Of a stretch of DNA of 64,000 nt, positions 9,446 through 34,962 are shown one piece after another; position 1 is the first letter of the stretch; the number at the start of each line of letters is the position of its first letter. The notes beneath the pieces were generated by a model. It was not told where the DNA came from and ran no database searches. It saw nothing but the letters and a program-made list of their open reading frames with translations. Source of the DNA: Elusimicrobiota bacterium (GTDB lineage Bacteria; Elusimicrobiota; Elusimicrobia; UBA1565); the NCBI GenBank assembly GCA_016196755.1, contig JACPXC010000007.1, forward strand, positions 62,001 to 126,000, in the 5' to 3' direction. A program made the position numbers and the translations under genes.

Positions 9446-12400
9446 ATGAGCGGGGTCAAAACACGACCTGGGACTTCGGAGGACCTCCGACGGGCCGGGG
9501 GGCCTAGGCCTTCGATTCCCCCCTGGCCCTGGTGGGTCACCCGCCCATCAGGCATCCTTAATATACTGACCTTCTACAGACGCCTGACCGCCGCCGGCCT
9601 AGCCGCCGTCGTCACAGCCCTGGCCCCCGGTATGGAGCCCTACCGGCTTTTTGCCCAGATCAGAGCGGGCGCCATGGAGGTCCCCGTCACGATGGGGACC
9701 CCCGGGCTGAAAATGGGCGGCGCCTCGCCCGTTTCCGCCAACGTGTCGCTGGCCGCTCCCGCGGCATTGACCGGGCCCGCAGGGCTGGGGACCAGCCTCC
9801 CCAATCCTTCGCTGACCGGTCCTTCCGCCGCGCCTAGAGTCCAGGCAACGGCCGCCCCAACGACTGCGGCTCAAGCGGCTTCACCGAATCCGACCGTTGC
9901 AACCCCCGCCGCTCCGGCGATTCTAGCCGCCGCAGGCCCGCTGGCGGCCGTTCAACCTGCCGCCGCCGGCGCCCCGAAGCCCGCCCCGCTTTCCCGCATG
10001 TCCGCCGCTCCCGCCCCGGCCAAGGCCACCAAGCTCTCCCGCGCGGCGAGCGTGGACGCCACCCTCGACTCGGTAGCCAAAGGCGCCGACCCCCGCGCCG
10101 CCCTCGACACCCTCTACGCCGGCGGCCAAGGACGCGCCGCCTTGACCGACCCCGCCCAGGCCGGGACCCTCAACGCCGTCCGCCCCGCCCTGGCCCCCGC
10201 GTCCGAAGAACCGGCTCCCGACGCCGAGCCCGCCGTCACATTCCTGAAAAAGGATGCCCCTTCGGAAGAGCCCGCCCAGGGCTTCTTCGGCCGCCTCAAG
10301 TCCAAGCTCGCCGCCTTCGGCGACTTCAACCGCTCCGAGAAGGCCTACATCATCGGCCAGGCCGTGTTCCTGCTCGCCATCAGCATCTATCTGGCCAGCA
10401 TGCCGCTGATGGTGCAAGCCCTGACCGGCGACGCCGCGATGACCGGCGTCGCGCGCATGGTCCACTACTGGACCTTCGCCGGAGCCTCGCTGTTTGCCGG
10501 CGGCATCGTCCAGCGCACGCCGATGAAGCGCATCCTGGTCGGCTCGGCGGTGACCCGCGCCCTCATCTTCGGCTCGATCGGCCTGCTGGCCCTGTCCGGG
10601 GGCCTGCCCTGGGCCGGCTTCCTGGCCCTGGTGGCCGTAAACGCCCTCATCGTCTCGATGAACCACCTAGTCGACATCGACACCGACGGGGCCCGCAAGG
10701 TCTTCACCAGCGACAAGAAGATCGAGCAGGGCGGCTACCTCTACGACCTCATCTACTACGGGATGATGCTGGTCGTGCCGCCCCTCATCGGTTTGCCGAT
10801 CGACTGGCTCGACGCGACCTACGGCCCCGGCATCGGCGCCGCGGCGGGCTTTGCCGCCTTCTTCGCCGTGATGAGCGCGGCCGCCTTCATCTACGCGCGC
10901 TTCGTCACGGTCAACGGCGAGGCCAAACCCCTGCGCGAGCGCCTCGGCCCCCTCGGCCGCGTCCTCGACTTCCTGCAGGCCGGCTGGGAGATCGTGCGCG
11001 AGGCCCCGGCCCGCAACTGGAAGACCCTCAAGCTCATCTGGTCCAAGCCCAAGGTCCTCTGGCGCGCCATCCCGGCCACGGCCGAGAACTTCGTCGAGGA
11101 CGCGGTCTTCGCCGTGGTCCTGCCGACCTTCGCCATCGACATCCTCAAGGCCGGCGCCTCGGGCAACGGTGTCCTGCTCTCGGCCGTGACCCTGGGCGGG
11201 CTCATCGCCTCGACCTTCCTCGTCAAGTTCGCCCGCAAGATCGAGGGCCGCATCGGCACCTACGCGTTCCTGACCTATCTGACCGTCGTGGCCTCGCTGG
11301 CCTTCGTGCCGTCGATCGCCTTGTGGACGGCGCCGTCGCTGCTGCTCGCCGTCCCGGCCGTCCTGGCGATGAAGATGATGTATCAGCCGCTGCGCTCGCG
11401 CATGCGCGCCCTGCTCCAGGTCGAGATCAAAAACGACCCCGAGGCCGCCAAGCGCGGCGAGGACATCAACGCCCTGATGACGGTCTTCGAGGTGCTCTCG
11501 GCCGGGGCCGGCGGCCTGGCCTTCGCCTGGCTCTTCAGCAACGGCGCCGCGCTCCAGAGCACGCTCGGAGACAACGCCGCGATGAAGGTCGTCACCGTGG
11601 CCCTGATGGGCATCGCGGCGTTCTACATCCTCGGCCTGAGGATGCTCAGGAGCTCGTTCTCGAGCTGGTCCTGGTTCTCTTCGCCCAAGGGCTCCGAGGC
11701 CAAGGAGCGCGAGAAGCTCGACAAGAACCTCGCCCGGCTGGGCTATCCGCCGGTCAAGACCGTGACCGTCTCCGAGCCGGTCTCCAAGGACCGGCCCACC
11801 GTCGCCATCCTCGCCCCGGCCTCCCCCTACAAGCTCTCGATCGTCCGCGAGGGCGGGCGCCAGGCCCCCGGCGACGTCCACCTGGTCTTCGACGCCTCGT
11901 GGCTGGTCCAGGAGACCCTGCCCGACGGCTCGACCCGCATCCTGATGACCAAGGGCCTGTTCTTCGACGACGCCGGTCAGCCCTGGCTGGCCGAGTACGA
12001 CCAGCCGCGCCTGGTGCGCTACTTCGCCGACTACTTCACGCTGGGCTCCAACGACCGCGAGGACGGCGTCCCATTCGAGAAGGGCCTCGACACCCCGATG
12101 TCGAGCTCCGTCGAGCTCGAGTCGGTCACCAACGACAAGCTCTTCACCCGGGTGCTGATGGCCGGCAAGGGCGTGGCCGTCCCGGCCACTTTGGCCTTCC
12201 TTCTGGCCTCCCACCCGATGGGCGCCCAGGCGGGCTTCGAGCGGAACGGCGTCTCGCTCGAGAACCTGGCCGGCGGCAATGTCGCCGCGGTGCGCGCGCG
12301 CGTGGCGGCCTTCATCGCGGCCAACGCCGGGCGCCTCGGCGGCGAGGTGGTCGTGAAGCCCTCCGGCCCGCAGTGGCACTCCAGCCGAGGGGTCAAGTTC

Positions 12401-14404
12401 TTCAAGACCACCCAGGTGTCGGACATCGCGGCCCACGTCATCGCCCTCTCCAAGGACGGCATGATGACGCCCGACGGCGCCGTCCTCATCGACTCGCGCG
12501 TCACCCCGCCGCCCCTGCACTTCGCCGTCTCGGAAGGCGGGGCCCGCGCCCCGCCCGAGGGCGGGCACCAGGGCGCCGGCATCCGCCTCGGCCAGGACGT
12601 CACCCTCGACTTCTCGGCCGGCGCCCCCAAGCGCGACTGGAACATGCGCCTCTTCGCCCAGCGCACGCCCTGGGACGGCGCGGCCAACTCCGGCATCTTC
12701 GTGCGCGCCGGCCCCTGGGGCAAGCCCACCGTGGCCGAGCCGGGGGGACCCAGCGCCGACGAGAAGGCCGACCCCGAGTACGCCGCCGTCGTCATGCCCT
12801 TCGAGGACGTCATCGGCGCCCTGCGCGAGCAGCACGGCCTGCTCAAGACCGAGGAGGAGGTCCGCGAGTTCCGTTGGTCGCTCGAGGCCACCGCCCGCGG
12901 CGCGCTCGAGGCGCTCTGGGAGAACGAGGCCAAGCTCCGCGCCGAGGGCAAGATCCCGCGCCAGGCCTCCACCGACTTCGTCGGCCTCGACGTCATGCTG
13001 CACTGGGTGGGCGGCAAGCTCATCCCCACCGTCATCGAGATCAACGACCACGACTCGGGCGGCCAGATGCAGCTCGACCAGTTCTACCCCGAGCGCGCCG
13101 GCGAGCACTCCCGGGCCTGGGTGGCCACGATGCTCCAGCGCGCCCGCCGGGACTCCCTCAAGGGCAAGCGCATCCTGATCGTCGGCGGCGGCTACCACGG
13201 CAAGCGCTTCATCTTCGAGCGCGCCAAGGAACTCGGGGTCAAGGTCACTTTGCTCGACCGCCCGGGCTCGCTGATGGCCGACCTGGTCGACGAGTTCGTG
13301 CCCGTGGCCGACCTCGACGCCAAGGGCGCTCCGGCCGCCCTCGAGGCCCTTGAGGCGAAGGCCCGCAAGTTCGACGGCATCACCTCGTTCTGGGAGGACG
13401 ACATCCCGCTGACCGCCGAGCTCGGCGAGAAGCTCGGGCTCAAGTTCCTGCCCCTCGACGGCGCCAAGGCCGCGCGCAACAAGCGCCGGACCCGCGAGGT
13501 CATGGCGGCGGCCGGCCTGCCCACGCCGCGCTTCGCCCCGGTCCGCTCCGACGCCGAGCTCGAGCAGGCCGTCAAGACCGTGGGATTTCCGGCCATCCTC
13601 AAGCCGGCTTCCGGCGCCGAGGCCAAATTCGTGAGGGAGGTCGCCAACGCCGCCGAGGCTCGCGCCGCCTGGAAGTCGCTTGCCGAGGAAGTGGCCAAGG
13701 AGGCCGGCCACGACGGTGCCTTCTCGGCCTCGGTGGGCCTGGTCATGGAGCAGTTCCTCGACGGCGAGGAGGTCGACGTCGACCTGGTCTTCCAGGACGG
13801 CAAGCCGGTATTCTCGTCGGTCGCCGACAACTGGCCGACCAAGCGCCCCTACTTCCTCGCCACCGGCTCGAGCCTGCCCAGCCACCTGTCCCGGGCCACC
13901 CAGGACGCCCTGACCGCTCTGGCCGTGAAGGCGGCCGAGGCCCTGAAGCTCGGCACCGGAGTCCTCCACATCGAGATGAAGATGACCTCCGAGGGCCCGC
14001 GGGTCATCGAGGTCAACGCGCGCATGGGCGGCGTCTACGTCCGCGACTGGGTGAAAGCGGTCTGGGGCGTGGACCTGGTCGAGGAAGGCCTGATGGCGGC
14101 GGTCGGCGTCCCGGGCAGACCCTACAAGTCGCCCGAGCCGCTGGCCCACCTCGAGGGCCGCTTCCTGATCCCGGAGGTCTCGGGGACGCTGACCGAGTTG
14201 GCGGTGCCCGCAGGCTTCGCGAAGGACCCCGCGCTCTACGAACTGCGCAAGATGATCAAGGTCGGCAGCGCGGTGCGCGTGCCGCCCAACGGCAACGACC
14301 GCGTCGGGATGATCACCGCCCAGGGCCGCAGCGCCGCGGAGGCAGAACGCGCCCTGATGCGGCTCGACGGGCAGGTGACGATGACGGTGGAGTCCGCGCC
14401 TTAG
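9446..14404 (+). CDS. MFS-type transporter fused to carnosine-synthase-like double ATP-grasp ligase
   Basis: 1652 residues from this ATG, though the true start may be later: there is no Shine-Dalgarno and residues 44-71 look like a signal peptide (RRLTAAGLAAVVTALAPG, ending LFAQ). Residues ~80-290 are Ala/Pro-rich. Residues ~294-740 contain 11-12 hydrophobic segments in two halves, MFS-like. Residues ~785-1240 match the N-terminal half of carnosine synthase (VVVKPSG, TDFVGLDVML, VIEINDHDSGG). Residues ~1240-1652 are its catalytic ATP-grasp half: LIVGGGYHGKRF, FDGITSFWEDD, LVMEQFLDGEEVDVDLVF, HIEMKM, VIEVNARMGGVYVRDW. Vertebrate CARNS1 joins beta-alanine and histidine. Inference: an ATP-dependent amino-acid ligase physically tied to a transporter. 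Substrates are unknown. Confidence 0.9.
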   Translation: MSGVKTRPGTSEDLRRAGGPRPSIPPWPWWVTRPSGILNILTFYRRLTAAGLAAVVTALAPGMEPYRLFAQIRAGAMEVPVTMGTPGLKMGGASPVSANVSLAAPAALTGPAGLGTSLPNPSLTGPSAAPRVQATAAPTTAAQAASPNPTVATPAAPAILAAAGPLAAVQPAAAGAPKPAPLSRMSAAPAPAKATKLSRAASVDATLDSVAKGADPRAALDTLYAGGQGRAALTDPAQAGTLNAVRPALAPASEEPAPDAEPAVTFLKKDAPSEEPAQGFFGRLKSKLAAFGDFNRSEKAYIIGQAVFLLAISIYLASMPLMVQALTGDAAMTGVARMVHYWTFAGASLFAGGIVQRTPMKRILVGSAVTRALIFGSIGLLALSGGLPWAGFLALVAVNALIVSMNHLVDIDTDGARKVFTSDKKIEQGGYLYDLIYYGMMLVVPPLIGLPIDWLDATYGPGIGAAAGFAAFFAVMSAAAFIYARFVTVNGEAKPLRERLGPLGRVLDFLQAGWEIVREAPARNWKTLKLIWSKPKVLWRAIPATAENFVEDAVFAVVLPTFAIDILKAGASGNGVLLSAVTLGGLIASTFLVKFARKIEGRIGTYAFLTYLTVVASLAFVPSIALWTAPSLLLAVPAVLAMKMMYQPLRSRMRALLQVEIKNDPEAAKRGEDINALMTVFEVLSAGAGGLAFAWLFSNGAALQSTLGDNAAMKVVTVALMGIAAFYILGLRMLRSSFSSWSWFSSPKGSEAKEREKLDKNLARLGYPPVKTVTVSEPVSKDRPTVAILAPASPYKLSIVREGGRQAPGDVHLVFDASWLVQETLPDGSTRILMTKGLFFDDAGQPWLAEYDQPRLVRYFADYFTLGSNDREDGVPFEKGLDTPMSSSVELESVTNDKLFTRVLMAGKGVAVPATLAFLLASHPMGAQAGFERNGVSLENLAGGNVAAVRARVAAFIAANAGRLGGEVVVKPSGPQWHSSRGVKFFKTTQVSDIAAHVIALSKDGMMTPDGAVLIDSRVTPPPLHFAVSEGGARAPPEGGHQGAGIRLGQDVTLDFSAGAPKRDWNMRLFAQRTPWDGAANSGIFVRAGPWGKPTVAEPGGPSADEKADPEYAAVVMPFEDVIGALREQHGLLKTEEEVREFRWSLEATARGALEALWENEAKLRAEGKIPRQASTDFVGLDVMLHWVGGKLIPTVIEINDHDSGGQMQLDQFYPERAGEHSRAWVATMLQRARRDSLKGKRILIVGGGYHGKRFIFERAKELGVKVTLLDRPGSLMADLVDEFVPVADLDAKGAPAALEALEAKARKFDGITSFWEDDIPLTAELGEKLGLKFLPLDGAKAARNKRRTREVMAAAGLPTPRFAPVRSDAELEQAVKTVGFPAILKPASGAEAKFVREVANAAEARAAWKSLAEEVAKEAGHDGAFSASVGLVMEQFLDGEEVDVDLVFQDGKPVFSSVADNWPTKRPYFLATGSSLPSHLSRATQDALTALAVKAAEALKLGTGVLHIEMKMTSEGPRVIEVNARMGGVYVRDWVKAVWGVDLVEEGLMAAVGVPGRPYKSPEPLAHLEGRFLIPEVSGTLTELAVPAGFAKDPALYELRKMIKVGSAVRVPPNGNDRVGMITAQGRSAAEAERALMRLDGQVTMTVESAP

Positions 14405-15048
14405 CGGATGGCCGGCCCGCCCGGGCCGTCCTTCAAGGTCCGGAAGGTGTTGACGAGCGTATTGAGGCGCTCTTTGTACTTGTCGAAGCCGGCCCGAGTG
14501 GCCGGATAGATCAGGACGTAGAAGCCCGAGTCCATCGGCAGCACGACGTAAGCGTGCTGGCGGACCACGAAGTTCTTGCCGGTCCCTCTCTCCTCCGAGA
14601 GCCCGAAGCGCAGGCCGGGCGGCGCGTCCATCGGGGCGACGACCACGAAGTGCGTGGCCTCCCAATTGCTGACCTCGACCCTCTGCGGCTCGACCTGGAA
14701 GACCCGCCCCGGGCCATAGACGTCGCGCAGGGTGCGGGCGATGAAGTCCTGAGGTGAGGCGTAGGCCTCGATCGTGCCGTCCGGCAAAGTACGCACGCGG
14801 TTCTTGCCGTACCAGCGCACCTGGAGCGTCGGCACGCCGCGGTGGAAATCGGCGTCGAACGGGCCGACGAAGGTGTAGTTGTAGTAGTCGTCGCCCTGCC
14901 GGTCGAGGTAGACGCTCCAGCCCCAGGGGACCTCGGCCGTGAAGTCGCCGGCCTCGGAGGAGTACTTGATGTACTTCGGAGGTTTGCAGGCGGTGGAGAG
15001 CGCCGCCGACGAGACGAGGAGGGCCGCCAGGAGTCGCCGCGCTCGCAT
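14401..15048 (-). CDS. Lipoprotein of unknown function (PsbP/DcrB-like pattern)
   Basis: 215 residues. The signal ends in a lipobox-like LSTAC with Cys20. The mature part begins KYSSEAGDFTAEVPWGWSV, then has a beta-rich domain with ASPQDFIARTL and ends with LNTLVNTFRTL. This order (user-specified protein recovered against a wall of strands, final NTFR helix) resembles PsbP/DcrB-type lipoproteins, but that is pattern similarity only. The last 4 nt overlap the convergent fusion gene. It has its own consensus-like promoter inside the end of dedA. Confidence 0.72.
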   Translation of the reverse strand: MRARRLLAALLVSSAALSTACKPPKYIKYSSEAGDFTAEVPWGWSVYLDRQGDDYYNYTFVGPFDADFHRGVPTLQVRWYGKNRVRTLPDGTIEAYASPQDFIARTLRDVYGPGRVFQVEPQRVEVSNWEATHFVVVAPMDAPPGLRFGLSEERGTGKNFVVRQHAYVVLPMDSGFYVLIYPATRAGFDKYKERLNTLVNTFRTLKDGPGGPAIR

Positions 15049-33060: not shown

Positions 33061-34812
33061 TCAGTACGCGCGCTCCCGGCGGATGTCTTCCTGGGCCAGG
33101 CCCCGGTAGACGCGGAGCAGCATGTCCCGGCTCACGGCCGGGACCAGCCGTCCCTCTTCCTCGACGACGACGTCGGCGTAGAGTTCGACGAGCTGGTCGG
33201 CGCGGCGCTTGGCGGCCAGCACGCCCTGCCAGCGCGAGAACCAGGACCCGCGGCCCTCGGACTCGTCGCGGAGCGCGTTGCCCTCGCGCATGCGTTTCAT
33301 GTCGGCGGCGCTCATGTGCGCGCGGCCCGGGGCGTAGAGCTCGAACATGCGCTCGAACTCGACTAAGTCGATGTCGCCCGGCGTCAGGCCGCGCTTGTTG
33401 CCGGCCGGGGCGAAGATGCGGCTGTTCGAGTAGCCCTGGGCCTGGAACAGGTTCGGCAGATAGATGTCGAAGGGACGGAACAGGAGCCCCAAGTCCCAGC
33501 GCTCTTGCAGGGACAGTCCGCTCTGGGTCTTGGGGCCGAAGAGTAGGTGCGAGAGCAGGGCGGTCTTGAAGGCCTCGACGACCGAGAGCCCGTGCTCGCG
33601 CATCGCCAGGTAGGTCGAGTCGAGGCGGGCGATCGGGGCGCCCACGTCGGGGGCCTTGAGGAACCAATAGCGCTTCTGGAGCGAGGTCTTGCCCGGCAGG
33701 CTCGAGACGTCGGTCGCCACCGGGATGCCCTCGCGCAGACGCCCAAGCAGGGCGATCTTGAGCAGTTCGATTCCGTCGGCGAAAGCCGCCGTCCGGGACC
33801 GCGTCAGCAGCGCCGAGAGGCCCACGGCGGCGGTCAGGGCCGCGAGGACGGGGTTCGTCGCCGCCAGAGTCCAGGCGGCGTAGCCGGCGCCGATCAGGAC
33901 GGCCTTCACGCCGAGGGAGCTCAGGGCGACGCCGAGACCGGCCTGTTCGACGCCTTTGAACAACGTCGGGAACATCAGGGTGCGGCGCTCGGTGGGGACG
34001 CCGTCCGAAACGGACCGCATCGAGCTCAAGGCGAGCATTCGGCCGTAAGCGGGCAAGAACGGGAGCGCCAGGCCCGCGACGAGCCCGGCGGCCGTCGTCC
34101 AGGCCGCGGCGCCGGTGATGACAGCCGCCGCGCCGACCGCGGCCCCCAGCCCCAGCGTGAGGACGTTCGACCAGAGGATGGCCGTGGAGGCCTTGTTCCC
34201 CTTCTCGAGCATGCGCCGCGGGAAATCCGCCGCGTCGGGCGCGGGAATCGGACGCCGCGCAGCCGCCGGCTTAAGACCGTTAGGCCCCGCTCTGGAGCCG
34301 GACACCGGGACAGGCTCGATCCCATTGGACGTGAAGGGGCGCGCGGCATCGAAGAAAACGCCGGAGGCGGCCCCTTTCGAGCCCAAGGCGGATCGTGGGG
34401 CCGGCTTCGCGATAGCGGCCAGGACGGGGTTCTCGGATAAGCGGACGGTCAGTTCGCGCGCAACGGCGGTCGGGCCGGCGGGCGCGGCGGCCTGGGCGGC
34501 GACCGCCGCCTGGGCTGCCGGAACAGCGACGGCGACCGGAACCGCGGCAACGGAGGCGGAGAGGACGGCGGCCGAAGGACGGGCCACGACGCCGGGCAGG
34601 GTGAGGGTCGGCATGAGACCGACCGAAGGGAGGCTGGGCATGGACGGTCGGAAGACCGGCGCCGCGCCGAGAGCGCCGGCCACCGGCGCCAAGCCCACGC
34701 CGACGGCGGGCGCGCGGACGGCGGCGACGCTCTGGGCGGCTGCGTCGACGGCCGCCCCGGGGACCGAGAGCAGGATGGCGCCGACGACGACGCTGGCGTT
34801 GAATTTCCGCAT
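33061..34812 (-). CDS. Membrane-associated caleosin-like protein with Ala/Pro-rich leader
   Basis: 583 residues from ATG 34812, which has GGAGA at a good distance (an ATG at 34827 is also in frame). Residues 1-27 form a signal peptide; ~28-180 are Ala/Pro/Val-rich; ~190-340 hold several hydrophobic segments. Residues ~374-575 follow the caleosin plan: SLQKRYWFL (EF-hand region), a helix with FKTALLSHLLFGPKT, FRPFDIYLPNLFQAQGYSNS, GDIDLVEFERMFELYAP, LAAKRRADQLVELYAD, DMLLRVYRG. Plant caleosins are calcium- and haem-binding oil-body proteins. Here the EF-hand acidic residues and the haem His are not conserved, so a structural lipid-surface role is more likely (inference). Confidence 0.66.
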   Translation of the reverse strand: MRKFNASVVVGAILLSVPGAAVDAAAQSVAAVRAPAVGVGLAPVAGALGAAPVFRPSMPSLPSVGLMPTLTLPGVVARPSAAVLSASVAAVPVAVAVPAAQAAVAAQAAAPAGPTAVARELTVRLSENPVLAAIAKPAPRSALGSKGAASGVFFDAARPFTSNGIEPVPVSGSRAGPNGLKPAAARRPIPAPDAADFPRRMLEKGNKASTAILWSNVLTLGLGAAVGAAAVITGAAAWTTAAGLVAGLALPFLPAYGRMLALSSMRSVSDGVPTERRTLMFPTLFKGVEQAGLGVALSSLGVKAVLIGAGYAAWTLAATNPVLAALTAAVGLSALLTRSRTAAFADGIELLKIALLGRLREGIPVATDVSSLPGKTSLQKRYWFLKAPDVGAPIARLDSTYLAMREHGLSVVEAFKTALLSHLLFGPKTQSGLSLQERWDLGLLFRPFDIYLPNLFQAQGYSNSRIFAPAGNKRGLTPGDIDLVEFERMFELYAPGRAHMSAADMKRMREGNALRDESEGRGSWFSRWQGVLAAKRRADQLVELYADVVVEEEGRLVPAVSRDMLLRVYRGLAQEDIRRERAY

Positions 34813-34962
34813 GCGTTCTCCAAGCAAGAGCAGGCCCTGATTCTAGCTTCGCCTGACGGAGGGTGGAAGGGCCCTTTGGACCCGCGGGTGGGGACCCAAT
34901 CGCCCTGGGCGCCGCAGCTGGGAAAGCACGGGATTTCCGCGTTTAAAACGGGCCCTGGTTCT

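Follow-up and report, generated by a model that had tools for sequence, protein, structure and literature searches.

A single protein chain in Elusimicrobiota unites a predicted membrane transporter with two ATP-grasp enzyme halves. We found it in the window, a 64,000-nucleotide stretch of DNA from an Elusimicrobiota bacterium, where one long frame encodes, in order, a leader, a linker, an MFS domain, and a double ATP-grasp enzyme (Table 1). All of the parts come from known superfamilies. Judging by the literature that we found, what is new is their coupling in one chain, the second, unclassified ATP-grasp domain, and the recurrence of the fusion in the phylum. A sequence-only reading had proposed this architecture and had known of no described protein in which transporter and ligase are physically joined; our literature search yielded none either, and a search for work on Elusimicrobia together with ATP-grasp, signal peptides, or polyproteins found nothing relevant. 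The segment positions given in that reading were right within a few tens of residues, and the blocks that it quoted (FWEDD, LDGEEVDVDLVF, and EVNARMGGVYVRDW) are all found in the frame.

Table 1. Features of the fusion gene and of related loci; positions refer to the window unless a locus is named.
Feature	Residues	Position	Strand	Basis or remark
Whole frame (leader, linker, MFS, two ATP-grasp halves)	1652 aa	9446..14404	+	uninterrupted
Signal-peptide-like leader	about 41-70	9566..9655	+	alignment
Ala/Pro-rich linker	71-276	9656..10273	+	predicted mostly disordered, pLDDT <50 over most
Short helical linker motif around ALDTLYAGG		10097..10129	+	predicted model; chosen partly by eye
MFS transporter domain, 12 predicted membrane helices	296-735	10331..11650	+	model, profile, charges
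N half, ATP-grasp fold	746-1236	11681..13153	+	predicted model, alignment; no Pfam family
C half, L-amino-acid-ligase type ATP-grasp	1237-1650	13154..14395	+	Pfam, PDB match, alignment
PF18130 ATPgrasp_N	1257-1332	13214..13441	+	E 1.8e-12
PF13535 ATP-grasp_4	1380-1532	13583..14041	+	E 1.8e-19
PF18603 LAL_C2	1572-1649	14159..14392	+	E 1.1e-11
Reversed-order LAL-MFS fusions		L050:5436-9122, L052:5928-10223, L056:6726-10586		checked
Fem/ATE-like domain		L070:8557-9597, L076:8765-9805, L074:54-1037, L072:19147-20205, L078:7776-8837		fused to or near double ATP-grasp

Parts of the fusion protein

The start codon of the frame is uncertain. When relatives are aligned, residues 1-40 show no conservation, and a CTG at 9566 that aligns with the ATG of the nearest relative is a possible translation start. 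The leader contains, in order, RR, a hydrophobic core, LAPG, and EPYRLFA followed by Q, with L59, P61, G62, Y66, and A70 invariant among 13 aligned sequences; a putative cleavage site, judged by eye, lies after A70, between LFA and Q. Downstream of it, the linker is the fastest evolving segment of the protein, and its short helical motif resembles one in unrelated leader-bearing proteins. The gene is flanked by genes on the opposite strand, some of which are kept in close relatives of the window's genome, and no obvious biosynthetic partner genes were seen beside it. We found no support for a long antisense frame (10667-14665, reverse strand) and regard it as a mechanical by-product of the high GC content of the gene.

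The membrane part is transporter-like, as had been proposed. It yields a good predicted model with 12 helices and an MFS fold, for which Foldseek returned MFS structures (sialin, G6PT, DtpA, and NorA). Its only family match is to the model of an H+-antiporter (efflux) family, TIGR00900 (E 3e-12), with a score below the cut-off (46.6 versus 319.6 bits). Searched alone against Pfam, the domain gave no match up to E 10 and did not reach the MFS_1 cut-off, which two relatives (L052 and L074) do reach. Lysine and arginine residues total about 29 in the inside loops and about 2 in the outside loops when both termini are placed in the cytosol (N-in/C-in), and a model combining hydropathy and charge likewise favors 12 helices in that orientation. 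By the positive-inside rule, these loop charges would put the ATP-grasp halves on the cytosolic side. Four charged positions within the helices or close to them (D410, D412, E547, and D552) are invariant or nearly so.

Assignment of the C half to the L-amino-acid-ligase (LAL) type draws on several lines of evidence. Specifically, ATPgrasp_N, ATP-grasp, and LAL_C2 domains occur in the order typical of LALs, all three above curated cut-offs, and the best PDB match is BL00235 (3vot; 403 residues aligned, E 2e-29), with weaker matches to BacD and to another L-amino-acid ligase, 4wd3. Furthermore, K1386 (the lysine of KPxxG) and E1522, N1524, and R1526 (E-x-N-x-R) are invariant. BL00235, BacD, and RizA have in common with the C half the combination of PF18130, ATP-grasp_4, and LAL_C2 along with the E-x-N-x-R motif. 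Yet those enzymes are soluble single proteins of about 410-475 aa, whereas here the ligase makes up the C-terminal quarter of a membrane protein, behind a second ATP-grasp domain. Scores of the C half against models of characterized equivalogs fall far below their cut-offs (43 of 850 bits for BacD, 44 of 840 for DdaF) and so point to no particular substrates.

The N half had been read as non-catalytic, and our results go against this. AlphaFold predicts its structure with confidence (pLDDT 87.9, pTM 0.87), and in Foldseek the model matches Ddl (3lwb, E 2.9e-8), RimK (4iwx, TM 0.67 by target), tubulin tyrosine ligase, and DcsG. In the full-length alignment K971 (KPSG), R1068, D1182 (GLD), and the E and N of E1198-x-N1200 never vary. 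In the predicted model, D1182 and E1198/N1200 sit on adjacent strands, as expected of a working site; their equivalence to metal- and ATP-binding residues was drawn by motif rather than by superposition. On the strength of this model, the N half is predicted to be a complete second ATP-grasp domain with intact catalytic residues. It shares fold and the placement of K, D, and E-x-N with Ddl, RimK, and tubulin tyrosine ligase. By sequence, however, it matches no PDB chain at E <= 1, and searched alone against Pfam it returned nothing up to E 10. An origin of the two halves by internal duplication was considered and dropped, since profile comparison of one with the other shows no similarity.

Recurrence of the fusion and its variants

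Counting only frames that show the MFS side, we find the fusion in the window's genome and in 14 others from Elusimicrobiota, with some copies truncated at the end of a contig (G001, G002, G003, G004, G006, G011, G013, G015, G024, G025, G032, G038, G048, and G052). They are independent assemblies that include other genera and families, which rules out an assembly artifact or frame run-through. Nor are the parts separate genes in related genomes, the circumstance that would have made the long frame an artificial joining of two genes. The MFS part, N half, and C half lie at the same distance from the nearest relative (dN 0.16, 0.16, and 0.18, respectively); relative dN is given instead of dN/dS, since a GC3 of 93% makes synonymous distances unreliable. 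Together with the recurrence, this equality indicates that the fusion is not the product of chance or misassembly. Trees of the MFS part, N half, and C half agree in their main groups, with L064 and L072 discordant, which suggests recombination within the gene.

The N half was matched in 25 of 57 relatives, one of them weakly, and in 11 of 248 genomes of an even sample of the phylum, all of one class. A scan of 84,980 GTDB species genomes returned 22 relatives, 20 titled Elusimicrobia or Elusimicrobiota and 2 only "bacterium"; its query consisted of two N-half peptide patterns, so that LAL-MFS fusions without the N half lie beyond its reach. At least two relatives, G016 (L078) and G023 (L081), retain leader and both halves and are devoid of the MFS part; the leader directly precedes ATP-grasp domains without an MFS domain in L042 and L059 as well. 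The complete genome of G044 (CP096137) has the order of the fusion in frameshifted form (L077:9926-15131), which may reflect sequencing errors or decay.

Ligases and MFS domains have been brought together in other ways as well. G003 and G006 carry the same double ATP-grasp enzyme fused to another MFS lineage, and L074 carries it fused to a relative of that lineage. In a separate family the order is reversed: a leader is followed by a LAL ATP-grasp and then by a 12-helix MFS domain. We checked this arrangement in three loci (Table 1), and the length of the proteins and the position of the ATP-grasp make it likely in L051, L053-L055, and L057. The MFS domains of L050 and L052 constitute a further lineage, and the reversed-order MFS domains are predicted to be N-in/C-in, which would place the ligase on the same face. 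Ligase and MFS have thus been joined independently more than once, which points to functional coupling. A further family (L043-L049, mostly 819-841 aa; domains checked in L043 and L044) has a LAL ATP-grasp in front of a D-Ala-D-Ala-ligase-like one and neither leader nor MFS.

Partner domains and the shared leader

Some relatives bear an extra domain of about 345 aa with weak matches (E about 0.01) to Fem/ATE-like proteins, which may form peptide bonds in a tRNA-dependent manner. This domain is fused to the double ATP-grasp protein in G003, G006, and G206 (L074), and is encoded within about 6 kb of the fusion gene in G016, G023, G024, and G025. The N half is present in 9 of the 10 relatives that have it (hypergeometric P 0.0016, uncorrected for shared descent).

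In one clade, the fusion is followed on the same strand by conserved genes for an M28 peptidase and for two large paralogs that bear the leader (L068:9081-15345, L065:16769-23225, L066, L078, L079, and L080); one of the paralogs matches a PDDEXK nuclease, and L079 additionally encodes a leader-bearing M48 and ABC1-kinase-like protein. A 2423-aa frame (L074:3-7271; G206:C123) contains Fem-like, MFS, double ATP-grasp, and CAAX-protease-like domains and a sigma-70 factor. A 5940-aa frame (L122:328-18147; G117:C31) contains PP2C, a nucleotidyltransferase, an MFS and double ATP-grasp module, and sigma-70 region 2. With its repeated hydrophobic hairpins, several of them with signal-peptidase-like AxA sites, the latter frame resembles a polyprotein threaded through the membrane.

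In 0.8 Mb of sequence from the window's genome, about 14 proteins have a similar leader and linker, among them an HtrA-like protease, a DUF4953 metallopeptidase, and also transporters. Proteases and metallopeptidases of these kinds are normally exported. Bearers of this N-terminal module of signal peptide and Ala/Pro linker (window 33064-34842, L084, L092, L093, L102, L104, L105, L110, L114, and others) are otherwise unrelated, including proteases, PLD, MFS, Na/H exchanger, and kinase-like proteins, and an LDAxFDG...NGV motif is often present. A regular expression for the linker motif, itself partly derived from the same proteins, matched 6 of 13 against 0.8 expected by composition shuffling; a held-out HMM of the short motif gave weak E-values. 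The same genome also encodes MFS fusions to a HAD phosphatase-like domain, recognized by eye (L110:953-4045), and to a domain of the endonuclease/exonuclease/phosphatase family (L092:10531-13317).

Proposed function and alternatives

We give roughly an even chance to the view that the protein, bound to the membrane, both synthesizes and exports a small peptide or amino-acid conjugate with a single chain. On the cytosolic face, the two ATP-grasp halves would link a carboxylate, activated as an acyl phosphate, to an amine. The C half would act like an L-amino-acid ligase, the N half would carry out either another ligation or some related step that uses ATP, and the fused 12-helix MFS domain would export the product, thereby coupling synthesis to export. 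In this scheme we infer the ligase activity, the cytosolic side, export over import, and the peptide nature of the product. The Fem/ATE-like domain that is fused to the protein or encoded near it in relatives fits this view, whereas the lack of obvious partner genes beside the window's gene and the relatives without an MFS part speak against it.

Partial precedents exist for such an arrangement. CARNS1 is a soluble, two-part animal enzyme whose C-terminal ATP-grasp is of the L-amino-acid-ligase type. The sequence-only reading had matched the protein to it block for block; the likeness that we see is in general features, namely the two parts and the LAL-type C-terminal ATP-grasp, and the nearest tested relatives of the double ATP-grasp enzyme, judged by its C half, are bacterial L-amino-acid ligases. 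The beta-alanyl or GABA conjugates suggested in that reading are a guess. MprF, in which tRNA-dependent lipid aminoacylation is paired with a non-MFS flippase, resembles the fusion in carrying synthesis and transfer across the membrane in one chain. For bacilysin, the ligase BacD and the exporter BacE are separate proteins that are encoded by neighboring genes and serve one product (PMC9147277), and the ligase PboG is encoded alongside the MFS proteins PboE and PboI (PMC8473136). In both cases a ligase and an MFS transporter are encoded together, but as separate proteins, whereas here they form one chain.

MFS domains may also be importers or mere anchors. The domain could take up an amino acid or peptide that the cytosolic ATP-grasp halves conjugate at once, driving uptake. 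This would fit the same topology, and importers or peptide symporters (DtpA, PepT, sialin) are among the Foldseek matches; nevertheless, we consider it unlikely, given that the one family model matched by the MFS part is that of an H+-antiporter and that known LAL/MFS pairs export (PMC9147277). Somewhat less likely again is a non-transporting domain that serves as anchor or sensor and tethers the ligase to the membrane, where it might act on a membrane-bound acceptor or on the envelope. That a different MFS takes its place in G003/G006 and L074, and that L078/L081 lack it, would be understandable on those terms, and a Fem-like partner and Ddl-like N half would suit envelope peptides. Yet the MFS part is conserved as much as the enzyme halves, and the invariance or near invariance of D410, D412, E547, and D552 likewise argues against a passive role.

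The leader raises a different set of questions, since a cleavable Sec-like leader would leave the linker outside the cytosol, in conflict with an N-in/C-in MFS domain and a cytosolic ligase. If it is a working signal peptide, the ATP-grasp halves may act outside the cytosol: the leader is of classical Sec type, like those of the HtrA-like protease and DUF4953 metallopeptidase of the same genome, which are of kinds normally exported, and it stands directly before ATP-grasp domains in the proteins without MFS (L042, L059, L078, and L081). ATP is not expected there, however, and the charges strongly favor a C-in orientation, which makes this quite improbable. We assign marginally less probability still to a precursor, made as one chain and then cut, polyprotein-like, into leader, MFS, and ligase. 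A similar module does occur in the 2423- and 5940-aa frames with sigma factor, PP2C, and internal signal-peptide-like AxA sites, but the joint between MFS and N half (735-750) is short, partly conserved in sequence, and free of AxA-like sites. A broader proposal, improbable in our view though less so than either of these two, is that a shared module of signal peptide, Ala/Pro linker, and LDxxFDG helix directs ATP-grasp peptide ligases of Elusimicrobiota to or across the membrane, with ligation at or outside the inner membrane and with the MFS-fused, MFS-less, and polyprotein forms as one system.

If the coupling of synthesis and export is real, the fusion would show, in compact form, how nature channels synthesis into transport and would offer a handle for producing and secreting dipeptides. 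The N half brings to light an unclassified ATP-grasp family. More generally, the recurring leader module and the very long multidomain frames provide a view into the little-known protein architecture of groundwater Elusimicrobiota.
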